64,000 nucleotides of DNA from Flavivirga eckloniae (GCF_002886045.1 NZ_CP025791.1:1937001-2001000), one strand, 5' to 3'; positions 15,190-36,071 are shown, counted from the stretch's first letter. A program made the numbers and translations. The notes: generated by a model from the letters alone, not told the origin.

Positions 15190-15894
15190 TTATTCTACAT
15201 TATAACAATACTGATACAACGCTCTAAAATGGTCTTTCATTTTTTGTTTTGCCAATTTAGGATCTTTGCTTTTAATAGCTTCGTAAATCTCTGTATGTTC
15301 CTTAATGCCCTCAAAGGCTTGATCTATATCGCAAACATGATATTTTTCAAAATCGATAATGATCTGTGGGGTAATAGATAACATAAATGTATTCATAGTA
15401 CTATTACCACTTGCTTTTGCTATGGCCAAATGAAACAACAAATCTTCTTGTACGGCATCTTCGCCCGACAATGCTTTTTTCTCGTAAGCATCTAAGGCTT
15501 CTTTAATATGTTTTAAATCCTCTTCTGTACGTCTTAAAGATGCTAATTTTACAGTTTTTAGCTCTAATAAAATTCTTGTTTCTACCAGCGACTTAAAATC
15601 TTGAGATTCTAATCTCAAGATATCTTCTATCATTCCGTTCATAGCAACCACACCAATGTTTGCGACAAATGTTCCACTTTGAGGAATGGATTTTAACAAT
15701 CCGTAAAACTCTAATTTTTGAATGGCATCCCTAACATTACTTCTACTCACCTTAAATTTCTCAGATAACATACGCTCGGAAGGTAATTTATCCCCCGGCT
15801 CCAGATTTTTATAGTTTATTAACTCTTTAATTTTACTAATTATAGAGTTTTGTATTTCTCTGTTATCTCCTACTGTAAGTATTTCCAATTTCAT
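15190..15894 (-). CDS. GntR-family regulator with FCD domain (FadR subfamily)
   Basis: The 234 residues carry a winged helix-turn-helix (about 15-78: LEPGDKLPSERMLSEKFKVSRSNVRDAIQKLE) and an FCD ligand domain (about 90-230). The expected metal and ligand residues are visible: Arg107, Asp151, His155, His200 and His222. FadR-subfamily members that respond to uronates (UxuR, ExuR) bind sites of the type TTGGTATACCAA. Six promoters in this window carry tandem TTGGTWWACCAA-like repeats. I therefore propose this protein as their regulator, with an alginate-derived uronate as inducer. Its own upstream region shows no such site. Confidence 0.93.
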   Translation of the reverse strand: MKLEILTVGDNREIQNSIISKIKELINYKNLEPGDKLPSERMLSEKFKVSRSNVRDAIQKLEFYGLLKSIPQSGTFVANIGVVAMNGMIEDILRLESQDFKSLVETRILLELKTVKLASLRRTEEDLKHIKEALDAYEKKALSGEDAVQEDLLFHLAIAKASGNSTMNTFMLSITPQIIIDFEKYHVCDIDQAFEGIKEHTEIYEAIKSKDPKLAKQKMKDHFRALYQYCYNVE

Positions 15895-22441: not shown

Positions 22442-25400
22442 TTAAAATTGTAAGTTAATCCCTGCTGAAATTGTTCTAACCACTGGCCCATCACCTCTTT
22501 GATAACCTGCTGTTAGTGGTGTATTAGCATTATCTGACGTTTGACCAGCAGCATCTGGGTTAAACCCTTCGTAACCTTTAGCGGTAAAGAAGAGTAAGTT
22601 CTCACCCGTCATATACAATCTTAGTCTATCTATGTTAAGCTTTGAAGTAACTAACTCTGGCAACGTATACCCTAATGTTACATTTCTTAAAGTTACATAA
22701 GAAGCATCTTGTATATGATCGTTTGTAAATCTTCTATGAACTGTTAAATCTCTGTCTGGGAAATTGGAAACTTCATTTACAGCCGATTCACTGGCAAAGT
22801 ACAACTGATCTAAATCGGCAACCCTAACTTCGGCTCCATGAGATCCTTGCCATTGAAATGAAAAATCGAACTCGCGAAACGTAAAATCTGAATTGAATCC
22901 CCATACAAAATCAGGGTATGGACTACCTAATTCTGTTCTATCTTCATCATCAATAACCCCATCATTATTCAAATCTTTTACGTAAACATCAGCAAAATCA
23001 TTGTTAAACCTATTAAATGGATTGTCTACCCACTCTAACGGAATCTCCTTTTCGTAAACCCAACCGTAAAAAGAAGTTATCGGCTGTCCTACTCGTGCTA
23101 TAAATTCCGTAGGTCTGGTATCCTGATCAATTCTAGAGATAATTTGTTGGTTATTTCCTAAACTAACCACTTCATTCCTGTTTAAAGAGAATTGACCTGA
23201 CGCTCTCCAGCTAGCATTTTCGTTAGCGAAAATTCTAGAGCTCAATTCCAGTTCTATACCCTCATTTTTAACTTCTCCTATATTCTGTAACCAGTTATCT
23301 GTACCATAAGTGGCGGCTACTGGGGCAAAAAGAATTAAGTCTTCACTTGTTCTTGTATAGTAATCGGCTTTTAAGCTTAAAACACCTCTACCAAATGTAA
23401 CATCTAAACCAGGGTTAAACTCTATTAATTTTTCCCAACCTAAATTTTGATTCGCTAAGGTTACTCCTTTAACTCCTGTTCCTCCATTATAACCAATGGT
23501 ACTGAATGTTTCTTCGAATCTGTAAAGTGAATCGAATATATTGTTAGAGATCTCATTAGAACCTGAGATACCATAACTAGCTCTTAATTTTAAAAACGTT
23601 ACAATTTCGTTTGCTGGTAAGAAATCTTCGTTAGTTACAACCCAACCTACAGAAGCTGCAGGAAAGAATCCGAACCTTGTATTTGAACCAAATCTGGTAC
23701 TACCATCGGTACGAGCAGATACCTGGAACAGGTATTTCTCATCATAATTATAATCTAGTCTTCCAAAATATGAAACTAGCTTATCTGTTCCATTATTGGT
23801 AAATGTTGTCCCCCCATCTGCAATGGAGATATTGTTATTAAAATCGTCTGTAAAGCCTACCGCTTCAGATTCTTGTCTATAAAAATCTCTTTGCGTATAC
23901 TCAAACCCTAATACAGTATTAAAATTATGTTTGCCAAAATCTTTCTTATATTTAAGAATAGACTCAAAGGCATACTGATTTACTTCATCTCTTCGTTCTA
24001 AACGGTAAGATTCTTGTTCTCTATTTTCCTGACCAAATAAAAAGTCGGCCTCATTCGTCTTATTATGTCTAAAAACACCTGAAATAGTCTGTCTGAAATT
24101 AAGACCTTTAGCCAATTCAACATCAAAGTAAGAAGATGCATTTAAAGCTAATTTCTTTTTGGTTCTGGATCTTTCTAAAAAGTGCACTAAAGGATGAACG
24201 TTTTTAGTAGTAGATAAGGTTAATCCGCCTGATGTTAAATCGCTAACTAATGGAAGCCCTGTACTTGGATCTCTGGCAATTCTTCTCTGATCGTCTGGCG
24301 ATACTGTAAAAACATGATCGAAAGCTCTTGAAAATCCATAACTACCTACACCTAAGTTTTCAAATAATTTTCCTGCATCTGTTGAAGTACCAACATCTGT
24401 AGAAAACTGAGTTACATATTTTAAGTGCTCTTCGTTTAAGCGTAACGGCACATGCCCATATTGTCTTAATGGATCAGTAAATCTCGCAGGCAATCTATCT
24501 TGATCGTTGTAATTAACACGTAAATTTGCTCCAAACTTGATTTTCTTGTTTTTCGATTTACTGTCAACCTTTATTCTGGCATTATATTTTTTAAAATTAT
24601 CTTTTATTGCAATACCTTCATCTTCAAGATATCCTAAAGACGCTGTATAATTGGTTAGCTCCGATCCTCCTCTTGCTGCAAAAGAGTGACTTTGTATAAC
24701 ACCACCAATGAAAACTTCATCTTGCCAGTTTTTTTCTCCGCCTCCTAAACCAGCTAAAAAATCCATAGCTTCAAGCTCTGCATAAGCCGTGTTGTAGTCA
24801 CCGATTACTCTATCGTAGTTTGGACTATCAAGTGAAATGGCATCAACGGTACCCTGCAATCCATCTAACCTGGCTCTTTCCTGAGCGATAGATCTATTAA
24901 AGTTTTTGTTTTTGTTGGCGTATTTGTATCCTGTAAATGAGTTATAAGAAAACTTTGTTTTACCAATAACACCTTTTTTAAGTGTAACTAAAATGACACC
25001 GTTAGCACCACGAGAACCGTATATTGCTACCGATGAAGCATCTTTTAAAACACTTAAAGATTCAATGTTGTTATTATCAATAGTAGCTAAAATATCAGGA
25101 TCGGTTCCTAATACAACCCCATCGACAACAATTAAAGGTGATGATGAACCAGTAATAGATCCCGGACCTCTTAATGTAATTTTAGGATCACCACCTGCTT
25201 CAGATGCGACCACCTGAATTCTTAAACCAGCTACTTTTCCTTGAAGTGCATCTTCCACCCTCGATACAGAAAAGTCCTTAATATCTTTAGATGAAACCTT
25301 TGTTAATGCACTGGTAACATTTTTTTGCTTTTGATCTCCATAGGCAACAACCACAATCTCTTCCAGTTTGGATATATCTTCTACAAGAGAGATATTAATC

Positions 25401-25672
25401 GTCTCTTGATCGCCTACAGGAACATTTTGAGTTTCATAACCTATATATGAGAATTGCAACACATCCCCACTGCTCGCTCTTAATTGATATTTACCATCAA
25501 AATCTGTGGATGTCCCTGTGGACGTGTTCACTATAACAACATTTACACCGGGAATGGGAAGGTTATCTGTTGCAGACACAACCGTTCCTTTTATAACCGT
25601 TCCACTCTGTGCAATTAATACAATATTGAAAAACAATATTGTTATTAGAGTTAGTTTAGTTTTTAAATTCAT
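22442..25672 (-). CDS. SusC-family TonB-dependent outer-membrane transporter (cassette 1)
   Basis: This 1076-residue importer takes oligosaccharides across the outer membrane using TonB. It has a signal peptide, a CarboxypepD_reg-like domain (about 25-100: GTVVSATDNLPIPGVNV, GKYQL, FSYIGYETQ), a TonB-box-like EIVVVAYGD, the plug (ALQGKVAGLRI, DGVVLG, SVLKDASSVAIYGSRGANG) and a 22-strand barrel ending in INLQF. The first gene of a six-gene operon, it has a 300-bp leader with two conserved hairpins and a triple operator. Its first 110 residues closely match those of the second SusC, while the rest is much more divergent. Confidence 0.97.
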   Translation of the reverse strand: MNLKTKLTLITILFFNIVLIAQSGTVIKGTVVSATDNLPIPGVNVVIVNTSTGTSTDFDGKYQLRASSGDVLQFSYIGYETQNVPVGDQETINISLVEDISKLEEIVVVAYGDQKQKNVTSALTKVSSKDIKDFSVSRVEDALQGKVAGLRIQVVASEAGGDPKITLRGPGSITGSSSPLIVVDGVVLGTDPDILATIDNNNIESLSVLKDASSVAIYGSRGANGVILVTLKKGVIGKTKFSYNSFTGYKYANKNKNFNRSIAQERARLDGLQGTVDAISLDSPNYDRVIGDYNTAYAELEAMDFLAGLGGGEKNWQDEVFIGGVIQSHSFAARGGSELTNYTASLGYLEDEGIAIKDNFKKYNARIKVDSKSKNKKIKFGANLRVNYNDQDRLPARFTDPLRQYGHVPLRLNEEHLKYVTQFSTDVGTSTDAGKLFENLGVGSYGFSRAFDHVFTVSPDDQRRIARDPSTGLPLVSDLTSGGLTLSTTKNVHPLVHFLERSRTKKKLALNASSYFDVELAKGLNFRQTISGVFRHNKTNEADFLFGQENREQESYRLERRDEVNQYAFESILKYKKDFGKHNFNTVLGFEYTQRDFYRQESEAVGFTDDFNNNISIADGGTTFTNNGTDKLVSYFGRLDYNYDEKYLFQVSARTDGSTRFGSNTRFGFFPAASVGWVVTNEDFLPANEIVTFLKLRASYGISGSNEISNNIFDSLYRFEETFSTIGYNGGTGVKGVTLANQNLGWEKLIEFNPGLDVTFGRGVLSLKADYYTRTSEDLILFAPVAATYGTDNWLQNIGEVKNEGIELELSSRIFANENASWRASGQFSLNRNEVVSLGNNQQIISRIDQDTRPTEFIARVGQPITSFYGWVYEKEIPLEWVDNPFNRFNNDFADVYVKDLNNDGVIDDEDRTELGSPYPDFVWGFNSDFTFREFDFSFQWQGSHGAEVRVADLDQLYFASESAVNEVSNFPDRDLTVHRRFTNDHIQDASYVTLRNVTLGYTLPELVTSKLNIDRLRLYMTGENLLFFTAKGYEGFNPDAAGQTSDNANTPLTAGYQRGDGPVVRTISAGINLQF

Positions 25673-25848
25673 AATTAACTTATTTTATGTTTTTAAATTG
25701 TAAGTTTAAATTTGTATTCTTTGCCAATTAGTTTCGTCCCATTAAGAATTACATAATTTTTAGCTCACCACACAAAAAATATAATCTTCCATAAGTTTTG
25801 TAATTTCTAAAGATGTATATTTTTATATAGCAGCTACCTGTGTTTTAT

Positions 25849-25912
25849 TTTACCTCCCTCCTAAAAGAAGTAAATTAGTTATAAAAAGAATAGACGTGCA
25901 CCTGTTCTTTTT
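25849..25912 (-). ncRNA. conserved leader RNA of susC1, two hairpins
   Basis: In the transcript one hairpin has arms from 25867-25874 and 25849-25856 with a ten-base loop containing AGGAGG. The other has arms from 25901-25911 and 25884-25894 with the loop UGCACG. Both recur in the susC2 leader at 35901-35962. In the second hairpin a G-C pair there is an A-U pair here, and other differences keep G-U wobbles, which indicates selection on RNA structure. Function is not known. Confidence 0.65.
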
Positions 25913-25977
25913 TATTGTTTCGTCATATATGATTTGGATTTTTTGAAAGGTTATACATTGAGTTTGTCTTGTTTTTA

Positions 25978-26045
25978 CTGGAAAACCAAATTGGTTTACC
26001 AGATTGGTTTTCCAAATATATGTTAATTTTTTTGTTAAAACCAAA
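25978..26045 (-). promoter_or_regulatory. promoter A: triple 13-bp operator on the susC1 promoter
   Basis: Three repeats with a 13-bp period are CTGGAAAACCAAA (25978), TTGGTTTACCAGA (25991) and TTGGTTTTCCAAA (26004). On the minus strand the last unit runs into TATATTTG (26013-26020), a TAnnTTTG -7 box, with TTTG of the -33 element at 26042-26045. The operators thus cover the start of transcription. Confidence 0.82.
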
Positions 26046-26066
26046 AAAATCGAAATTTTAACACTA

Positions 26067-26150
26067 CTATTCTATATGGCGTTATAGAATTGGGCCAAAA
26101 ACATCGATTAGTATACTTTTACAAGCACAATAAGTACAATTGGGGCTTCT
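26067..26150 (-). pseudogene. decayed tail of a kdgF-like cupin gene
   Basis: Read on the minus strand this gives ILIDVFGPI, then a stop, then three codons and a TAG, against ILIDVFSPIREDFME in the intact cupin at 36117-36464. A cysteine five residues before matches as well. The remnant stands in the same place relative to promoter A as the intact gene does to promoter D. The region further upstream is too decayed to read. Confidence 0.75.
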
Positions 26151-26280
26151 TTAGCTCTATTTGCAGTGCATCTCTGTTAGACACTAACATTCCTTGTCTA
26201 TCAGCAGAAATCAAACATCAAGAAGCAATCATTAAAAACTAAAAAAGTCTATTTATATTAGTCACAAAACTTTAGATGTA

Positions 26281-26322
26281 ATATAAGAAAAGCCTTTTAT
26301 TTCAAAAAGGCTTTTCTTATAT
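26281..26322 (-). terminator. strong terminator after the 26336 gene
   Basis: Arms at 26281-26298 and 26305-26322 form a perfect 18-bp stem around a 6-nt loop, with the GC-containing centre AAAAGCC/GGCTTTT. It begins 14 bp past the stop codon. Confidence 0.9.
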
Positions 26323-26335
26323 AAAATGAGTAAGC

Positions 26336-27250
26336 TTACTTAACAACTATTTTTTGAGTTAAACTACTATTTTCTGTAGCTATTCTTAATAAATACATTC
26401 CAGAACTAAGGCTTGAAACATTAATATTACTATTTGATAAACCTTTTTGTCCGTAAACTTCTTTTCCTAATATGTTGTAAATTTTAACAGATGACACTTC
26501 AATATTATCAGCGTTTATTGTTAATACTTCTTCAACTGGGTTAGGGTGTACTTTAAATTTTGAGGCAAGAAAATCTTCAGCTGAAAGCGTTGTTGTATTA
26601 GCTAAAACCAAATTATCCATTCTAATCTCTGAATCTCCATTCATCCAACCTTTATCTTTACCCGAATCTCCGTGGGATCCAGCATCGTAAGGTCCTACAG
26701 CTCTAATAAATATAGCTATACTAGTCTCAGACCCAGTATTGAATGTTAACTGCGTGATCGCATTAGTATTTGTGTTTCCTGGAGGTGTTACAAGGGTTCT
26801 TGCAAGCTGGTTCGCAGCCATCTCAACGGCTGCAACGGTACTGTAACCAAATCCTTCCTGAGCAGCATCAGCTGGCACATCATATGCAGGTGTATATCCT
26901 CCTTCATACCCACTACCCTTTAGTATTATAATTTCAACATGCATTGTTGTCGTTGGGTCTATTTTGTAGGTGTAATCTAAATCTAATGTGTAATCACTAT
27001 TAGCAACAACAGCAACTTCTTGATAAATACCATCAGACTCAAAGTCATCAAATTTCACTACATCGTTACTATTCGACGTAGAGGATTCTGCTTGGTCAGC
27101 AATGTCTTTATTGATCCATCCAGAACAAGAACAATCAGTACCTGCAGATTTAGGAATTTTGTCAAAAGTAGCATTATGTACAGTTGGTTGCACTTGAGAA
27201 TACCCCAAAGCAGACACACAAAGCAATAATAAAAGTAATTGTGTTTTCAT
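26336..27250 (-). CDS. T9SS-secreted putative carbohydrate-binding protein
   Basis: The 304-residue protein has a signal peptide (LCVSALGYSQ), a beta-sandwich of CBM4/16-like type (about 22-215; NATFDKIP, GIYQEVAVVANSDYTLDLDY, SEIRMDNLVLA) and a T9SS type A sorting domain (about 225-304; FKVHPNPVEEVLTI, KIYNILGKEVY, SSGMYLLRI, QKIVVK). No catalytic residues are recognised. It has its own operator-bearing promoter and terminator inside the alginate locus, so it is probably a secreted or surface-attached alginate-binding protein. Confidence 0.82.
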   Translation of the reverse strand: MKTQLLLLLLCVSALGYSQVQPTVHNATFDKIPKSAGTDCSCSGWINKDIADQAESSTSNSNDVVKFDDFESDGIYQEVAVVANSDYTLDLDYTYKIDPTTTMHVEIIILKGSGYEGGYTPAYDVPADAAQEGFGYSTVAAVEMAANQLARTLVTPPGNTNTNAITQLTFNTGSETSIAIFIRAVGPYDAGSHGDSGKDKGWMNGDSEIRMDNLVLANTTTLSAEDFLASKFKVHPNPVEEVLTINADNIEVSSVKIYNILGKEVYGQKGLSNSNINVSSLSSGMYLLRIATENSSLTQKIVVK

Positions 27251-27322
27251 AATTATATAATTTTAATGAATTAATAGTAAATTGAAATTATCACAACTGT
27301 GCTAGGTTAAGTATATGTATTT

Positions 27323-27388
27323 TTGGAAAACCAAACTGGAAAACCAATTTGGTTAACCAAATATAGTTATTATTAGGAGTTTTCCAAA
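27323..27388 (-). promoter_or_regulatory. promoter B: triple 13-bp operator
   Basis: The repeats are TTGGAAAACCAAA (27323), CTGGAAAACCAAT (27336) and TTGGTTAACCAAA (27349). On the minus strand TATATTTG (27358-27365) is the -7 box and TTTG (27385-27388) the -33 element, with exactly 19 bp between. It drives the T9SS protein gene at 27250. Confidence 0.85.
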
Positions 27389-27422
27389 TTTTATTTTGTT
27401 AAAATGATTGTTTTACAAGTGT

Positions 27423-30029
27423 TTAACGTGAAATAATTATCATTTTAGATTCGCGTAAACCACTATCATTAGAAAAATTAATAAGATAGGGTCCGTTTAA
27501 CAGAGACGAAATATTGAGGATAATCTGTGATTTAGGAGTCGTTACATCCTTATTCATTACGAGTCTACCATCTAAGCTATAAACATTAATTTTATTTATA
27601 TTAAGTCCTGAAGTTCTAATATTGATAACATCTTTTGCGGGTACTGGAAATATTGATATTTCTGTATGGTCTATATCTTTAGTTGATAAACTGCTTTGGG
27701 TACCGTAAAATTCTATTTCTCCCACGGCATTCCAAACACTTTTTCTAGTATCTCCAGCACTATTAAATCTTCCGTAGCCTATTAATTTTATATAACGAGC
27801 ATTTGCAGTAACTTCATATTGATTAAAATCTGTTGTACTAGTTGCCGTTAATAACAAATCTCCTGTAGTTGGTAATGCCATAGTAAAATCTCCAGAATCT
27901 GTTCCAGTTGTTGAAACCCATACTTGGAAACCGAAAGGATCTGATTTGTTAGTTGTGCTGAATCGAACTAAATCTAGATTGTATTCATCACCTAAATCAT
28001 AAATTATATATTCGCCATCACCCTTATAATCTCCCGAGACAATAGAACCATCATCTGCCGCCCAAACAGTTCCGTTATCTTTGTCTAGCGTATTTGCTGC
28101 ATAATTAAATTTAGTTGTACCATTTACTTCTTCTTTTGAAAAAGAATGAATTGTTACAGGATCTCCAGCTAAACCCGTGTTAATAAGATCGTATAATTCT
28201 GTAATATCTGGAGCTGCTTGTGTTACACTTAAAACCCTGGATAGTGTACCTCCTACTTTAGTAAAAGTAACATGCCCCGTTCTTTCGGTTACGTTTGTGT
28301 TTTCAGTTACAGTTACAGCTACTGTTGCAGATCCCGATCCGGAGCTAACATCGGTTGTTATCCAGGAATCGCTAGTTTCAACATTCCAATCTATATTAGC
28401 TGTTACTGTTGTGTTCTGGCTACCGCCATCTATACCAAATTCGGAAAGATCGGAAACATATAAAGTCTCAACAGAAGCTATGGTACAAGTAGTAACAGTT
28501 AGCAAAACACCTTGAGCCCCAATAAAACAACTTCCAACAGAATCTCCCACATCACTATCAGCATGCGGTGAAAACGAAGCGGTACCTGTTGCCCCAGATA
28601 CTTCGCTAGCACCTATATCCTTGCCTGTACTTGGTCTGTTCAATCCTGTGATATCGAATGCTATTTCTGGAGTTGTAACGATAGCATTATTAGCAGCATC
28701 TCCTGAATCTGAAGGTAAAAACGTTTCTCCATCTGCAGCAAATCCAATAGTTCCTGAATTAAATTGGGTAGCAGATAACGTTGCTCCTAAAGTAGTACCT
28801 TGATAAACATTATTTCCAAAAGTTAATCCAGAACCTAGATCGCTAAAATCCCCAGTAATTATGGTAGTTAGCGTAGTATAAAACAAATTGTTAGTGAATG
28901 TGCCAATAGGATCGGTACTTCCTTTACTTGTATTAAAATACAATGGTGAATGTACGTTGTAAAATGAATTATGGGTTATTAAAACATTTTCTGTTTTTTG
29001 ATAACCATTTGAGCTTCCTCCTGAAGTCTCAGACCCTCCTAAAAATGTAATACCATTGTTCCATTGGGCTTGCTCATTTTCATTTATTAAATCTTGAAAG
29101 TAATTATTTGATATGGTGTGACCACTATCGGAAATTCGAACACCACCAGTTCCTTCTACATTTTCTCCTAAAAAATAATTTCCTTCAACCGTAGCGTTTG
29201 CACCATGCCTCAATACTAAAGAGCCTCTACATGCTCTAAACGTATTGTTTTTATATATGTTATTTGCACTCTTGTTTGTTATTATTTCATTCTCTCCATC
29301 CGATTTATTAAAATAATTTCCCTCTACATTTACATTTGCATTAAATGCTTGATAGTTACTTGCTCCTACCCTAATAGTTTCACTATCTCCAGCGTTTTGA
29401 GTGGCGGGATCTCTTTTTTCGTAATTATAAAAATAATTGTTTATTATTTGATGTCCAGCGGTAGCTTCTCCGTTATCAAAATTATACGAAAGCTCAACCA
29501 ATACCAAGGCTCCGGGAGATCGCTTGTTTAAAAAAGAACAATTAATTACGTTATTATATTGCCCGTACAAGACTACCCATCTATGTTTAGAGGTAGATTC
29601 ATCATCATCTATAGTTGTTGGATCGTCTGGCTCGGGTTCTAGCCCATTGATTGTACAATTTTGTATTGTACAATATCTTGCATAATCGGTACCATTTCTA
29701 AACTGGATATGGTTATTAACACCCTCTCCTCCATTCCAGTAAAAGCCATCTATAACTAAATATTCACCTCCTACATTCATCCTAAGGCCTCCGGTAAAAA
29801 TTACACCGCCTGGTGATTCTGCTCTAAAAACAATTGGGTTATCGGCTGTACCCATACCAACGAAGTCTATGCGTTCATCGGTGCTATAAACGCCATTTGC
29901 TAATATAATTTCATCTCCTGCTACATATACATTGTTCTCTAGATCTTCGGGGTCGGTGATGTTGTAAGTTGTTTGTCCTATTACTGATATAGAGAATAGT
30001 AATAGCCAATGTAGGGTAATTTTTTTCAT
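27423..30029 (-). CDS. T9SS-secreted PL6 alginate lyase with BACON and F5/8-type modules
   Basis: Family PL6 enzymes cleave alginate, mostly poly- or MG-blocks, on a parallel beta-helix. The 868 residues contain a signal peptide and a PL6 helix (about 20-500). The catalytic pair is Lys253 (NEIITNKSANN) and Arg274 (LVLRHG), 21 residues apart as in characterised PL6 lyases. A BACON-like domain (about 520-610, WNVETSDSWITTD), an F5/8-type C domain (about 630-780) and a T9SS sorting domain (about 790-868, FPVPAKDVINI) follow. Type IX secretion makes this the extracellular or surface-bound first attack enzyme. It has its own promoter with a triple operator. Confidence 0.93.
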   Translation of the reverse strand: MKKITLHWLLLFSISVIGQTTYNITDPEDLENNVYVAGDEIILANGVYSTDERIDFVGMGTADNPIVFRAESPGGVIFTGGLRMNVGGEYLVIDGFYWNGGEGVNNHIQFRNGTDYARYCTIQNCTINGLEPEPDDPTTIDDDESTSKHRWVVLYGQYNNVINCSFLNKRSPGALVLVELSYNFDNGEATAGHQIINNYFYNYEKRDPATQNAGDSETIRVGASNYQAFNANVNVEGNYFNKSDGENEIITNKSANNIYKNNTFRACRGSLVLRHGANATVEGNYFLGENVEGTGGVRISDSGHTISNNYFQDLINENEQAQWNNGITFLGGSETSGGSSNGYQKTENVLITHNSFYNVHSPLYFNTSKGSTDPIGTFTNNLFYTTLTTIITGDFSDLGSGLTFGNNVYQGTTLGATLSATQFNSGTIGFAADGETFLPSDSGDAANNAIVTTPEIAFDITGLNRPSTGKDIGASEVSGATGTASFSPHADSDVGDSVGSCFIGAQGVLLTVTTCTIASVETLYVSDLSEFGIDGGSQNTTVTANIDWNVETSDSWITTDVSSGSGSATVAVTVTENTNVTERTGHVTFTKVGGTLSRVLSVTQAAPDITELYDLINTGLAGDPVTIHSFSKEEVNGTTKFNYAANTLDKDNGTVWAADDGSIVSGDYKGDGEYIIYDLGDEYNLDLVRFSTTNKSDPFGFQVWVSTTGTDSGDFTMALPTTGDLLLTATSTTDFNQYEVTANARYIKLIGYGRFNSAGDTRKSVWNAVGEIEFYGTQSSLSTKDIDHTEISIFPVPAKDVINIRTSGLNINKINVYSLDGRLVMNKDVTTPKSQIILNISSLLNGPYLINFSNDSGLRESKMIIISR

Positions 30030-30058
30030 TAGGTTAGTATTAAAAAGTTTAAATTAGA

Positions 30059-30124
30059 CTGGTTTTCCAAATTGGTTTTCCAAATTGGTAAACCAAATAT
30101 AGATTTAATTCATTAATTTCCAAA
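30059..30124 (-). promoter_or_regulatory. promoter C: triple 13-bp operator on the PL6 gene
   Basis: The repeats are CTGGTTTTCCAAA (30059), TTGGTTTTCCAAA (30072) and TTGGTAAACCAAA (30085). The -7 box TATATTTG lies at 30094-30101 and the -33 TTTG at 30121-30124, 19 bp apart on the minus strand. Confidence 0.86.
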
Positions 30125-31003
30125 TTTTTTAACATTAAAGCCTGAAAATTAACATAGTAGTAACCTTTAATTGAAAGATTTAAACTACAATCGAAGAGGT
30201 TTGGAAAACTTGTCTGCCGACAGCTACGGTGTACCTGCATCTTTTTAATCAAGCTACGAATTACACAGATTTACACGAATAAAACCTCAATATGATGGAT
30301 AGCTCTCTATATTATTCATAATCACAAATCAGACTTTCAGTCTGTTTTTACAATCTAAACCCGATTTAACTCTATTATATTTCCATACTTCAATTTACAA
30401 ATAAGTAAATGCAGATTACTTATTTGTAAATAATTTGTATTTAGAACCATTTGTGATAATTCGTGAAATTAGTGTCTGTCTTTGTAAAATTATTATTTAA
30501 TATGCAGTCATATTTATGAGTAAACAATAGCTACCGACAGACAGGCAAAAAAGTTGAACTAAGTTGAGTACTCCGTCTACGCCAAAAAAACTAAAGTAGA
30601 AACCTAATTACACTTGTAGATTATCGTGATCTTTCGACTGTGCTGCCATTAACGTATTTTGTTAAAAGCTTAATTTAGAGTAGTTTGTCATTCAGAAGCC
30701 TCCCTGTCTGCCGACAGGCAGGCTTCTGAATGACACCCGATGACGTCATTTTATAAACACCTCTTAAATTGATGATTGACCTGTGTCTGGTCGAGCGCAG
30801 TCGAGACCTCCTTAAGACCTCTCGACTTCAGTTTATGCTGAGCACAGCCGAAGTACTAGAGGAGACATGACGTCAATATTTTACACTGGATAAAATTTTT
30901 ATTGGATGTCTCAAACTGACATCCATGCTTTAACTTAATGACATTGCTCGAGCTCAAACAGAATTATCATCAATACCTTGATTTTTGAAATGGGTACATA
31001 TTT
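30125..31003. repeat. gene-free stretch filled with dispersed repeats
   Basis: No gene is supported here. Contents: a hairpin with perfect 16-bp arms (30393-30408, 30416-30431) related to that at 12617-12653; a near-perfect 23-bp-arm hairpin at 30686-30735; and a segment at 30741-30875 bounded by two copies of TGACGTCA that holds GTCGAG/CTCGAC motifs. AGTTTATGCTGAGCA (30830-30844) recurs inverted at 55853-55867. These look like non-autonomous repeat elements or their debris. Confidence 0.7.
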
Positions 31004-31048
31004 TTTATCCCTGAATTTACATGTTAGATGTGTAAACCCAGGGATAAA
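31004..31048 (-). terminator. terminator of the susC2-susD2 operon
   Basis: TTTATCCCTG-AA-TTTACA and TGTAAA-CC-CAGGGATAAA form a long stem with one internal 2 x 2 mismatch. On the minus strand A/T-rich sequence follows. It begins 31 bp after the susD2 stop. Confidence 0.8.
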
Positions 31049-31078
31049 TAGTAAAAACTAAACTTAAATATTGTTTAT

Positions 31079-32623
31079 TTAGTAACCATCATTTTGAGGT
31101 AACAAGTTAGGGTTTCTCTCTAACTCATCTTCTGGTAATGGTAATAAATAATCGTCTGGAGTAAAATTGGGTTTTTCCCCTTCTAAACCAGAAGCACTAA
31201 ATACATTATAAGGAGCACCTCCCATTTTCCTTCTAGCTATGTCATACCACCTTTTACATTCAAAAGCTAGCTCTAATCTGCGCTCTTCCAATACATCTTC
31301 AACTGTAACGGTTCCTGCAAGGTCTGCTGGTACAGCACTAGGAGCTACCGTTACTGGAACATCCGCTCCGGTCTTAGTTGTACCACCCATTCTTGCTCTA
31401 GCTCTTACCTGATTGATATAGTTTAGAGCAGATGCATTATCTCCAAGCTCTACAGCTGCTTCTGCTGCAATTAACAATACCTCAGCATAACGTATCATAG
31501 AATAATTATGACTTGTTGCCCTAGCATTCCCGCGAGCAAATGCCCCTGGATAACGCGTATATTTTGCAATGTATGGGTTGTTTTTGGCATGCTCATGTCC
31601 ACTTACAGTAAAGTTAGTATAATCTACAACCGCACCTTTAATTGATGCTTCATCATCCATACTAACGGCTCTTCTGTAATCTCCTGCATCCCATGTAGTA
31701 TACACTGCAAGCGTAGGAACTGCTACAGACCATCCACCACCACTATTTCTATCATCTCCTCTAATACCTGTCATTGGAGCTATTTGATCATAAGCATTAT
31801 TATCGGCCTCAACATTATTATAATCTAATGCGAATATGGGTTCTTTAGAGCTGTCTATGACTTCTGCATTAAATAAGTTTTGGAAATTCGAATCTAATTC
31901 ATACTGGTAAGTCCCTGCATTGTCGATCACCTCTTTAGCTTCATCAAAAGCTTTTTGCCATTCTCCTTGAGTTAAATATACCAAAGCTAAATAAGAACTA
32001 GCAGCTCCCTTGGAAGGTATAGCTCTTGATGCTGTGGTGTTTGGTAACCACGTTTTCGCATATTGTAAGTCTGAAATAATATTATTATAGACTTCTGCTG
32101 CTGATGTTTTACTAATAGAAGCTATTGCATCTGCATCAGTTATTGGTGCATCAATATAAGGAATATCTCCAAACAGTCTTACTAAATGAAAATAGTAAAA
32201 TGCTCTTGCAAAATAAGCTTGGGCAGTTATAGGGTTTTTAACATTTTCATCTGTATCTACATCCTCTGCTCCAGCTATAGCTTGATTAGCTGCAGCAATT
32301 CCTTGATACGTTTTTGGCCAAAACTCACTAATCATTCCATTACTAGCTAAAGTAGTTAATTCGTCATGCTCTACCCGTCTTGTTTGGCTAGATGCAAGAT
32401 CCACCATATCAGAACGTAACATTAATGCTATTGATAGTTTTCTACCCCAAAATTTTTCATTGATACCAGCAGTAAAAGCACCATTTACAGCTGTTTGTAT
32501 ATCATCAGTAGTTTGAAAAAACCCTTCTGGGGCCAGTAAACCTACAGGCTCTTCTTCTAAATCTGAACATCCAACTATTGATAAACTTACCAACAATAGG
32601 AATAAATATTTATATATTTTCAT
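31079..32623 (-). CDS. SusD-family outer-membrane lipoprotein (cassette 2)
   Basis: I place the start at the ATG at 32621-32623, giving MKIYKYLFLLLVSLSIVGC. A longer frame would overlap the susC2 end and spoil the lipoprotein signal. The mature protein starts CSDLEEEPVG and shows the SusD signatures YAEVLLIAAEAAVELG, INQVRARARMGG, VLEERRLELAFECKRWYDIARR and LPLPEDELERNPNLLPQNDGY. It would bind alginate oligomers as the lid of the second SusC. The spacing to susC2 is 25 bp. Confidence 0.96.
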   Translation of the reverse strand: MKIYKYLFLLLVSLSIVGCSDLEEEPVGLLAPEGFFQTTDDIQTAVNGAFTAGINEKFWGRKLSIALMLRSDMVDLASSQTRRVEHDELTTLASNGMISEFWPKTYQGIAAANQAIAGAEDVDTDENVKNPITAQAYFARAFYYFHLVRLFGDIPYIDAPITDADAIASISKTSAAEVYNNIISDLQYAKTWLPNTTASRAIPSKGAASSYLALVYLTQGEWQKAFDEAKEVIDNAGTYQYELDSNFQNLFNAEVIDSSKEPIFALDYNNVEADNNAYDQIAPMTGIRGDDRNSGGGWSVAVPTLAVYTTWDAGDYRRAVSMDDEASIKGAVVDYTNFTVSGHEHAKNNPYIAKYTRYPGAFARGNARATSHNYSMIRYAEVLLIAAEAAVELGDNASALNYINQVRARARMGGTTKTGADVPVTVAPSAVPADLAGTVTVEDVLEERRLELAFECKRWYDIARRKMGGAPYNVFSASGLEGEKPNFTPDDYLLPLPEDELERNPNLLPQNDGY

Positions 32624-32648
32624 ACTTATATTTTTTAAATAATTGTGA

Positions 32649-35600
32649 TTAGAATTTAACATTAACACTAAAATTTACAGTTTGCACCGTCGGATAATTT
32701 CCAAAATCAAACCCTTGAGCAGTATTAGATGCTGTGTTGTTATTAGATCCAGCAGAATTAGCAGTAGTACTCTTGCGACCCGCAGATCCAAAGAAGCTTA
32801 CTTCAGGATCTAAACCAGAATAATCGGTAAAAGTCAATAGATTTTGTGCACTCAAGGAAAGCCTTATTCTTTCTATTCCTAGACCGTTAATTAGCTCTGC
32901 AGGTAGATTATAACCTAACGCTAGGTTTTTTAATCTAATATAGCTACCATCTTCTACAAAACGAGAAGAAATTTCTCTACTACTATTATTTCCAACACGA
33001 GGCATGTTTGTGTTGGTATTTGTAGGTGTCCAAGCGCCATTATAATATTCTTTGGTCGTATTTGCATCTCCATTAAACAACTGTACATTGGTCATATTAA
33101 AAATCTCTCCACCCTGAGACCCTTGGAAAAAGATATTTAAATCCCAGTTTTTGTATGTAAAGTTATTGCTTATACCAAAAGTGTAATCTGGATTAGGGTT
33201 ACCTATAGTTGTTCTATCGGCTTCAGTAATATCACCACTATCGTCAACATCTCTAAACAATGGATCTCCTGCTACACCATTAGCTAAAGTTGCGGTGCCT
33301 TCTGGTAAACTGCCTCCTTGATATACCCCTTGATAATCGTACCCCCAAAATAGTCCAACTTGTTCTCCTTCTCTTAAAACTAGAGATCTATCATGACTAA
33401 AATAACTTGGAGCTGCATTAAAAAATAAATCGGCTCCGTTTACTAAGCTCACTACTTCATTTTTATTTATAGACAAATTAAAATCTGTAGTCCAGCTAAG
33501 ATTGTCGTTCGTTATATTTCTTGTATTTAAATTAACTTCAAACCCTTTATTATTTATCTCCCCTACGTTTGTTAGAATTTCATCATCTAAGTAACCTGAA
33601 TATTCAGGTAAAGCATTGTTAATTAAAATTAAATCTTTAGTATCTATATTATAATAATCTAACGAAAGCGAAATTCTATTCTTCAGTAAGCCTAAATCTA
33701 TACCAAAGTTAGTTTGGTAAGATGATTCCCATTTTAAATTTGGATTAGCAGGTCTATCTGGCGTGATAGCACTTACAGTCTGTCCATTACTAGAAGCATA
33801 AAGACTTCTATTAACTGCTAAAGAGCCGTAAGCAGGAATTGAAGGGTTACCTGTTACACCATAACTTACTCTTAACTTTAAGTTAGAAATAGTTTCACTA
33901 TCTTCTAAAAAGCTTTCGTTCGATACTTTCCATCCTAAAGCCGCCGAAGGGAAAATGGCATATTTTTCATTAGCTGCAAAATTAGATGCTCCATCACGTC
34001 TTACTGTAGCTGTTAGTAAGTATTTATCATCGTAATCATAATTTAATCTTCCGAATTGTGATTGAATTTCTACTTTTTGTATGGAAGAAGATGGCTGTAA
34101 AATAGTTGTAGCAGATCCTAAATCATAGAAAGAAAAATTATCTGAAATAAAACCAGTAGCTTCATTAAAAATATTTTCTGAAATCTTTTTTTGATAAGAA
34201 TATCCCGCCAATAACGTTAAATTTCCTTTTCCTACTTCTTTTTTATAAGTCAAGTAACTTTCACTTAGCAGCGTTGAACTTGTATTATTTTGAACTATAG
34301 CTCTACCACCTACAGGACCTGCTGTAACCTTTAATCTTGAAGGCATATAAATCCCTCTTCTTTCATTTTCAGTGCTTAATCCGAAGGTTGTTTTAAAGGT
34401 TAGGTTTTCAAGAATGTCGTAGTTTGCATAAAAATTTGCTCTAAAATTATCTATCTTAGTTTCATCCGTTCTTTCTGTAGCAACTGCAAACGGATTATCT
34501 ATAGGATCTCCTACACCACCATTTCCTGCATTATAGCTAAGGTCTGCATCATATATAGGTAAATCTGGCGAATATCTCATTGCTAAAGTAACGGCATCAT
34601 CTCCACCTGCAGAAACTGAACCATCAGATTTTGTAGCAGCTCCATCTTTAACACCTCTGCTTCCAAAAAGATTAAGTCCTAATTTTAATTTATCTGATGC
34701 TTCTGCATTTATGTTTGTTAAGAAAGTGCCTCTTTCAAAACCAGAATTAATTAAAATACCTTCTTGTTTAAAATAGTTACCAGAAGCATAAAAGTTTAAT
34801 TTATCTGAACCTCCTGAAAAAGAAAGTTGGTGATTTTGGGTATTACCACTTCTATAAATTAAGTCTTGCCAATCTGTATTTGCTGGTCCTTGAACATAAG
34901 GTACTGGTGTACCTCCATTTGTTATGGCAACATTGGTTCTTACTTGGTTTTGGTAATCTGCAAATTCATTTGCATTTAATAAATCTATTTCATTTGATGT
35001 ATTTTGAACAGCATAGGTACTATTAAGCTCAATAGACACTTTACCGTTTTTACCTTTTTTGGTAGTAACCATAATAACTCCATTAGAACCTTGCGAACCA
35101 TATATAGCAGTTGATGATGCATCTTTTAAAACCTCTATAGACTCAATGTCGTTAGGCTGTGGCATTACTGCTCCCACAAAACCATCAACAACAATAAGTG
35201 GATTGCTATTTGCATTAATAGATGTATTTCCTCTAATTTTTATGTTGATAGGAGCTCCTGGCTCACCACCATTGTTAGATTGAATAACTACACCAGCTGC
35301 TCGTCCTTGTAATGCTTGAGCGGCATCCAGAACAGGGAAAGCATTTAATTCTTCAGATTTCACCGAAGACACTGCTCCTGTAAGATCGCTCTTTTTTCTA
35401 GCACCATATCCTACTACAACCACCTCTTCCAATTGCGCCAAATCTTCTTCAAGTGAAACATCTAAAGTAGTTTGAGCACCAACAGTAACGGTTTGACTTA
35501 CATAACCAACATAAGAGAACTGTATCTTTTCTCCTTCGTTAGCTCTTATTTGATATTTCCCATCAAAATCTGTTGTCGTTCCTCTTGAAGTATTTAATAG

Positions 35601-35735
35601 CATGACATTTACACCTGGGATAGGGACGTTATCTTTGGTAGAAACAACAGTTCCACTAATCACCCTATCTTGTGCAATAACCGTAATACTAAAAAGTAAT
35701 ATTACAATTAGCGTTAGTTTGTTTTTTAAATTCAT
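32649..35735 (-). CDS. SusC-family TonB-dependent outer-membrane transporter (cassette 2)
   Basis: The 1028-residue importer has a signal peptide, a CarboxypepD_reg-like domain (about 22-97), EEVVVVGYGA as TonB-box region, plug motifs (ALQGRAAGVVIQ, NPLIVVDGF, VLKDASSTAIYGSQGSNG) and a barrel ending with VNFSVNVKF. Its N-terminal 110 residues resemble the first SusC strongly, but plug and barrel belong to a different branch. The two therefore probably import different alginate fragments. The leader and triple operator are shared with cassette 1. Confidence 0.97.
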   Translation of the reverse strand: MNLKNKLTLIVILLFSITVIAQDRVISGTVVSTKDNVPIPGVNVMLLNTSRGTTTDFDGKYQIRANEGEKIQFSYVGYVSQTVTVGAQTTLDVSLEEDLAQLEEVVVVGYGARKKSDLTGAVSSVKSEELNAFPVLDAAQALQGRAAGVVIQSNNGGEPGAPINIKIRGNTSINANSNPLIVVDGFVGAVMPQPNDIESIEVLKDASSTAIYGSQGSNGVIMVTTKKGKNGKVSIELNSTYAVQNTSNEIDLLNANEFADYQNQVRTNVAITNGGTPVPYVQGPANTDWQDLIYRSGNTQNHQLSFSGGSDKLNFYASGNYFKQEGILINSGFERGTFLTNINAEASDKLKLGLNLFGSRGVKDGAATKSDGSVSAGGDDAVTLAMRYSPDLPIYDADLSYNAGNGGVGDPIDNPFAVATERTDETKIDNFRANFYANYDILENLTFKTTFGLSTENERRGIYMPSRLKVTAGPVGGRAIVQNNTSSTLLSESYLTYKKEVGKGNLTLLAGYSYQKKISENIFNEATGFISDNFSFYDLGSATTILQPSSSIQKVEIQSQFGRLNYDYDDKYLLTATVRRDGASNFAANEKYAIFPSAALGWKVSNESFLEDSETISNLKLRVSYGVTGNPSIPAYGSLAVNRSLYASSNGQTVSAITPDRPANPNLKWESSYQTNFGIDLGLLKNRISLSLDYYNIDTKDLILINNALPEYSGYLDDEILTNVGEINNKGFEVNLNTRNITNDNLSWTTDFNLSINKNEVVSLVNGADLFFNAAPSYFSHDRSLVLREGEQVGLFWGYDYQGVYQGGSLPEGTATLANGVAGDPLFRDVDDSGDITEADRTTIGNPNPDYTFGISNNFTYKNWDLNIFFQGSQGGEIFNMTNVQLFNGDANTTKEYYNGAWTPTNTNTNMPRVGNNSSREISSRFVEDGSYIRLKNLALGYNLPAELINGLGIERIRLSLSAQNLLTFTDYSGLDPEVSFFGSAGRKSTTANSAGSNNNTASNTAQGFDFGNYPTVQTVNFSVNVKF

Positions 35736-35900
35736 AATTAGTTTTTTATGTTTAATAGTAAAGTTTAATTAGCAATTTATGCTCAATAAATAATAGGTAA
35801 GATCCTATTATTAATATTAACTCTACAAAAACATCATCTTCTTTCAATTTTTTGTAATTTTGAAGATCACATGTTTTTATAAAGTATTAACAAGTGTTAC

Positions 35901-35962
35901 TTTACTTCCCTCCTAAAAGAAGTAAATAGTTATGAAAAGGATAGGCGTGCACCTGTCCTTTT
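35901..35962 (-). ncRNA. conserved leader RNA of susC2, two hairpins
   Basis: Hairpin one: arms 35919-35926 and 35901-35908 (GAAGTAAA/TTTACTTC as read on the plus strand), with a 10-nt loop showing AGGAGG in the transcript. Hairpin two: arms 35952-35962 and 35935-35945, with loop UGCACG and a self-complementary GUGCAC. It matches the element at 25849-25912 with structure-preserving changes. It lies in the 5' leader between promoter D and the susC2 start. Confidence 0.65.
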
Positions 35963-36028
35963 TTTTATTGTTTCATCATATTGGTTTTGAGTTTTTTGAA
36001 TAGTTAGACATTAGCTTAGTTGATTTTA

Positions 36029-36071
36029 TTGGAAAACCAAATTGGTTTACCAGATTGGTTTTCCAAATATA
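36029..36071 (-). promoter_or_regulatory. promoter D: triple 13-bp operator on susC2
   Basis: The repeats are TTGGAAAACCAAA (36029), TTGGTTTACCAGA (36042) and TTGGTTTTCCAAA (36055), followed on the minus strand by the -7 box TATATTTG (36064-36071). The -33 region is weaker here (CTTGG). The arrangement is almost identical to promoter A. Confidence 0.82.

Follow-up and report, generated by a model that had tools for sequence, protein, structure and literature searches.

A predicted antisense small RNA opposite the susC leader in alginate loci of Flavobacteriaceae

A 64,000-nucleotide stretch of the Flavivirga eckloniae genome (GCF_002886045.1, NZ_CP025791.1:1937001-2001000; hereafter the window, with positions counted from its first letter) carries two susC genes whose leaders each contain the same pair of hairpins. 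These are copy A, before a gene of 1076 amino acids (22442-25672, minus strand; TIGR04056, 735 bits), and copy B, before the target gene of 1028 amino acids (32649-35735, minus strand; TIGR04056, 897 bits). What are these hairpins for, and to which RNA do they belong? The original prediction, made from the window alone, proposed a regulatory leader controlling SusC output or the target of a small RNA. We consider it probable that the hairpins belong to a gene, opposite susC, whose product is a cis-encoded antisense small RNA (sRNA) of ~95 nt, predicted to restrain susC. The proposal of a regulatory leader therefore stands insofar as a conserved, covarying regulatory RNA is tied to susC, but not in its choice of strand, as the structured RNA under selection appears to be the opposite one.

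The strand of the structured RNA

A hairpin with an AGGAGG loop (HP2) and a hairpin with the loop UGCACG (HP1) were both found on the minus strand in both susC leaders, as originally described, and a G-C pair of one HP1 stem is indeed A-U in the other. On the minus strand the HP1 stem of both copies contains a C.A mismatch that had gone unmentioned, and the further differences read as wobbles, although present as sense G-U pairs in copy A, are changes of a degenerate copy that break the antisense hairpin. Read on the plus strand, the C.A mismatch becomes a U.G pair, and this was the first pointer to the opposite strand. Compared with dinucleotide shuffles, copy B folded with z scores of -3.9 (minus strand) and -4.3 (plus strand), and copy A with -2.6 and -2.1, respectively. 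However, the two leaders are paralogues with 82% identity across ~230 bp, so a comparison of these two copies alone is weak evidence. A role of the AGGAGG loop as a Shine-Dalgarno or anti-16S device was considered and ruled out, as the loop reads GAAGG in one clade.

A covariance-model search of the Flavobacteriaceae, the check proposed beforehand, recovered further homologues with covariation, nearly always before susC. The model (R1) was built from seven sequences and searched against 399 Flavobacteriaceae genomes representing 237 genera. Matches were obtained in 81 genomes and 65 genera, with one or two copies each, and a few of the weakest are doubtful. Four weak matches not adjoining susC (L096, L098, L099 and L100) were excluded from later counts, leaving 84 elements. 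A second set came from an exact-pattern scan of GTDB with a pattern that permitted both antisense and sense wobbles; it yielded 95 stretches, of which the 80 listed were used, and it partly overlaps the first set.

In the antisense alignment, 97.6% of cells were paired and eight pairs had changed on both sides, a value reached by none of 500 shuffles, while slid versions of the alignment paired 44-65% of cells. The sense alignment paired 93.4%. The wobbles of HP1 separate the strands: 68 G-U pairs were antisense-only and 6 sense-only (23 versus 5 without the strongest column), and the corresponding counts in the GTDB set were 61 and 1. The counts for HP2 (13 antisense, 8 sense) were uninformative. 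Read as sense RNA, HP1 contains a C.A mismatch in 45 of the 84 sequences.

Signals flanking the hairpins also differ between the strands. The -7 consensus reported for Bacteroidetes, TAnnTTTG (PMC7366714), precedes HP2 by 30-40 nt on the antisense strand, with 55 boxes in one 10-nt bin where 0.8 were expected, and is present in 68 of the 80 GTDB stretches. When the search was anchored on TTTG alone, TA was found at the right distance in 63/73 and 68/73, with the first n variable. Downstream of HP1, most loci have an antisense U-tract of 6-9, whereas the sense T-tract is short. The sequence that separates the -7 box from HP2, and that would form a third hairpin (HP3), folds in 68 homologues with a mean z of -2.1 on the antisense strand versus -0.6 on the sense strand, and the entire antisense RNA has a mean z of -4.5. 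When the longer leader was aligned with MAFFT and folded with RNAalifold, only HP1 and HP2 were recovered, HP3 not being alignable. Because HP1 wobbles on the opposite strand, a conserved antisense -7 box and U-tract flank the hairpins there, and the third hairpin folds only there, sequence comparison indicates that selection acts on a structured RNA encoded opposite susC. The idea of a small-RNA target was thus close to the truth, except that the hairpins belong to the predicted opposite-strand RNA.

Parts of the element and their distribution

In copy B, the -7 box, three hairpins and U-tract delimit a predicted sRNA of ~99 nt on the plus strand (35868-35966) with the order HP3, HP2 and HP1 terminator; the 76 homologues modelled have a median length of ~95 nt (75-101). 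Its promoter box, TAATTTTG (35855-35862, plus strand), corresponds to a TAnnTTTG at the same place in most of the 84 loci. HP3 (35868-35896, plus strand), recognised from the difference between antisense and sense fold z scores, would be the 5' hairpin. It is followed by HP2 (35901-35926, plus strand; loop CCUCCUAAAA), the counterpart of the minus-strand AGGAGG hairpin, in which 95% of cells are paired in the antisense alignment, with covariation at the outer pair. HP1 with its U-tract (35935-35966, plus strand; loop CGUGCA and U8) was the best terminator call in the region and corresponds to the UGCACG hairpin at 35935-35962. On the plus strand it has the form of an intrinsic terminator, a GC-rich hairpin followed by eight T, and in the antisense alignment 99.3% of its cells are paired, with two-sided changes in 6 of 11 pairs. 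The loops of HP2 (CCYUC) and HP1 (GUGCAC) are near invariant across the 65 genera.

The susC transcript appears to begin upstream of these hairpins. The promoter of susC copy B has the -7 box TATATTTG (36064-36071, minus strand), a TAnnTTTG shared with homologues, in which it lies at -130 to -40 relative to HP1 and overlaps operator repeats TTTGGTWWACCA; a sense box is found in 78 of the 80 GTDB stretches. Since the susC promoter is upstream of HP1, the leader of the susC mRNA holds the complement of the whole predicted sRNA. Operator-like repeats TTGGAAAACCAATCTGGTAAACCAATTTGGTTTTCCA (36030-36066, minus strand) overlap the promoter of copy B and are present in the listed homologous leaders. 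Repeats of this GntR/AusR type (TTGGTTTTCCA/TTGGTTTACCA) also occur before several alginate-locus units, near 26000, 27330, 30060, 36040, 38940 and in the 44650 region, and overlap the TATATTTG box at susC.

Between operator and HP1 lies a short open reading frame (mini-ORF), which in copy B encodes MMKQ* and ends at the 5' side of HP1 (35965-35979, minus strand). Mini-ORFs of 2-8 codons (MKK*, MKI*, MRK*, MKQ* and others) end just before HP1 in 49 of the 58 loci with a long operator-to-HP1 gap (within leaders L010-L125; shuffles, 14%) and in 30 of 33 GTDB leaders new to the analysis (within L160-L239; shuffles, 16%). No trinucleotides are more over-represented in long-gap leaders than ATG and TGA. 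In about 26 loci the operator is close to HP1, leaving little or no space for a mini-ORF. Because the encoded peptides show no conservation, what matters is likely translation itself, not its product.

The element lies nearly always 95-200 nt upstream of the susC start (84 elements) and is embedded in alginate loci. Its neighbours include a cupin gene at 75 of 79 loci, an oligoalginate lyase of polysaccharide lyase family 17 (PL17) at 58 of 79, as well as PL6, PL7 and a GntR/FCD regulator. Element and PL17 co-occur, with 61 genomes having both (Fisher p = 1e-35). A DNA search found the element in 5 of 11 congeneric genomes, and a second covariance model (R2), built from 61 antisense sequences, found it in further PL17-bearing genomes, three matches being clear and the others weak beside PL17. 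Outside the Flavobacteriaceae, R2 gave no convincing match, and none above 36 bits, in 395 class-level genomes. The 80 listed GTDB stretches (of 95) come from flavobacterial records or from unclassified Bacteroidia or Cytophaga-labelled ones, with Zobellia, Maribacter, Arenibacter, Aquimarina, Kordia, Algibacter and Lutibacter among the genera, and a pattern scan of viral contigs gave no match. Culturable carriers listed by the GTDB scan are Zobellia uliginosa, Z. russellii, Flavivirga amylovorans and Kordia algicida. At the gathering score, Rfam 15 had no match in the window or in ten homologues. The BTnc231 model (RF04180) scored 23.3 bits with plausible ends (gathering threshold, 80.4) and was rejected on follow-up in other carriers: its weak matches in eight carrier genomes were located elsewhere, none at the element.

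Proposed mechanism and competing explanations

As features of the DNA, the promoter box, terminator, strand-specific pairing, covariation, complementarity and alginate-locus synteny are established. From these we propose that a sigma-ABfr-type promoter (TAnnTTTG) within the leader of susC initiates transcription of the sRNA, that transcription stops at the U-tract, and that the product would fold into the 5' hairpin HP3, the C-rich-loop hairpin HP2 and the terminator HP1. In the absence or scarcity of alginate, the sRNA would pair with the susC leader, the first contacts probably being made between the loops of HP2 and HP1 and those of their complements; this pairing would lower susCD translation or stability. 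A clash of the two facing promoters possibly assists repression. Release of the GntR repressor would let susC mRNA exceed the sRNA. The analysis as a whole suggests that the sRNA most likely restrains the alginate susC in many marine flavobacteria.

The mini-ORF may add a further step. A ribosome terminating there could cover the 5' edge of the sRNA-target region and so gate pairing, below the GntR operator; this is a tentative proposal that we regard as possible but doubtful. If it is true, a single leader would integrate signals from translation capacity, substrate and antisense RNA. The conserved mini-ORF offers a clear, testable link between translation and antisense control. We know of no other polysaccharide utilisation locus (PUL) with this three-part layout of mini-ORF, antisense unit and operator.

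Several observations weigh against a restraining antisense sRNA. Both the RNA and its effect are predictions. About one in five antisense boxes deviates from TAnnTTTG, and because the homologues are mutually related, the counts are not independent events. At three loci (L063, L089 and L107:15321-15385) the element precedes a GntR gene, not susC; a C-terminal susD remnant lies between the two at L107, so susCD was lost there and the element may be a relic. Finally, the loops are more conserved across 65 genera than a purely cis-acting antisense RNA would require, a hint that there is a target in trans or that a protein is involved. This last point leads to the explanation that the susC leader merely encodes a trans-acting sRNA, with the HP2 (CCYUC) and HP1 (GUGCAC) loops as seeds or RNA-binding-protein sites. 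The three copies beside a GntR gene without susC would fit such an RNA, as would copy A, a paralogous leader that keeps the target loops while its own antisense promoter decays. We nevertheless regard it as unlikely, if deserving of serious attention, because the full complement of the sRNA is always in the susC leader where susC exists, and the element is almost always single-copy and within the alginate locus. The three elements before a GntR gene were also put forward as proof of trans action, and this was rejected since one of them adjoins the susD remnant.

Alternatively, in line with the original reading of the sense strand, HP1 and HP2 could act within the susC mRNA as an attenuator, a translational switch or a small-RNA target, and the leader is indeed transcribed with susC from the upstream promoter, its sense folds also beat shuffles, and HP1 there follows a conserved mini-ORF. 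This seems improbable to us given that the HP1 wobbles are kept on the other strand, the sense stem is interrupted by C.A in 45 of 84 sequences, HP3 folds solely on the other strand, and the sense T-tract after HP1 is short. Still less plausible is transcriptional interference alone, in which promoters facing each other ~200 bp apart would suffice and the RNA product would be irrelevant: the -7 boxes of both facing promoters are conserved, but interference would work without conservation of HP2, HP3 or the loops, and these rank among the most conserved parts. We give next to no credence to a chance likeness of two recently duplicated leaders without RNA function, which the 82% identity of the window copies might have suggested and which is refuted by the family-wide covariation against shuffled and slid controls and by the promoter results.

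The predicted antisense sRNA resembles known regulators to differing degrees. DonS and DonS-like RNAs of Bacteroides PULs are cis-antisense and divergent to the susC homologue that heads a glycan operon (Cao 2016, per PMC7366714); they measure 78-128 nt and have a Bacteroidetes -7 promoter, and repression is reported for DonS (PMC7366714). By sequence, the flavobacterial RNA is DonS-like in arrangement and size, as it lies opposite the leader of a susC homologue, has its own predicted promoter and, at ~95 nt, falls within that range. Its expression and its repression of susC are predictions. Unlike DonS, it is a single RNA that can be aligned over 65 genera and is tied to alginate as its one substrate class; it also has a decaying paralogue, and the leader that it would target carries a mini-ORF. 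FopS and GibS are sRNAs of Bacteroides thetaiotaomicron, and FopS RNAs control susC-led operons (PMC11697453). FopS RNAs are multicopy and trans-acting, with an unstructured conserved 5' R1 seed, a terminator and an Rfam model. Membership of this family was rejected, as the flavobacterial sRNA has a 5' hairpin, one or two copies per genome, a cis-encoded position and no Rfam match at the gathering score. In the CopA/CopT system of plasmid R1, which serves plasmid copy control, structured antisense stem-loops face complementary leader stem-loops and pairing starts by a kissing loop. The stem-loops described here likewise face complementary leader stem-loops, which makes a loop-loop start of pairing plausible. 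Homology to CopA was rejected, since the CopA model scored 15.5 bits, which is noise, and the functions differ (copy control versus sugar uptake).

The alginate locus, copy A and other susC leaders

Flavobacteriaceae are major degraders of brown-algal alginate. The AusR system of Zobellia galactanivorans comprises a GntR/FCD regulator, repeated TTGGTTWACCA-type operators, susCD, PL7, PL17, PL6 and genes of the 2-keto-3-deoxy-6-phosphogluconate pathway, and the locus studied here shares the regulator type, the operator type and these genes. Its GntR/FCD regulator (15190-15894, minus strand; PF00392 and PF07729), which is also a neighbour in homologous loci, we take to be AusR-like. No report of an antisense RNA in the Zobellia AusR system was found in the literature searched, and to our knowledge a GntR repressor is the only control known for flavobacterial alginate loci. 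An antisense sRNA conserved in at least 65 genera would bring regulation by RNA into this control, and outside Bacteroides we know of no earlier PUL antisense RNA that can be aligned across a whole family. The R2 model can be used for searching transcriptomes and genomes.

The antisense unit of copy A is, to judge from its sequence, decaying. Its HP2 (25849-25874) has one C.A mismatch and its HP1 (25884-25911) one A.C mismatch on the plus strand, HP1 being a weaker terminator, and in place of a TAnnTTTG it has the degenerate antisense -7 box TAATTTCT (25801-25808, plus strand). The antisense minimum free energy is -11 kcal/mol for copy A versus -21 kcal/mol for copy B. Copy A retains both loop sequences and, on the minus strand, the susC promoter -7 box TATATTTG (26013-26020), a TAnnTTTG, together with the operator-like repeats (25979-26016) and a mini-ORF encoding MTKQ* (25912-25926), both known from homologous leaders. 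Pairing of the copy B sRNA with leader A was computed at -113 kcal/mol, so copy A could be under cross-control, with the copy B sRNA perhaps acting on leader A in trans.

Inverted-repeat arms flank the antisense -7 box in copy B (35820-35880, minus strand) and in L107 (AGCTCATTA...TAATGAGCT), L120 and L124. The longest exact arms measure 5.4 versus 4.0 in shuffles, and the window has a 12-bp interrupted match. This modest excess is no more than suggestive of a fourth hairpin in the susC mRNA, where the arms would compete with the complement of HP3.

The genome carries about 50 susC genes, and of the 30 leaders searched only two had an antisense promoter-terminator unit, so the unit is not a generic susC feature. 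One is the alginate leader. At the other, L261 (G000:C1:5251159-5254272, plus strand), a TAnnTTTG box and a terminator (GTATCGAGAAGTATTGCTGTACTTCTCGATTTTTTG) both lie on the antisense strand, ~230 nt from the susC match in the antisense direction; unrelated in sequence, this unit is a second candidate for a DonS-like antisense RNA.

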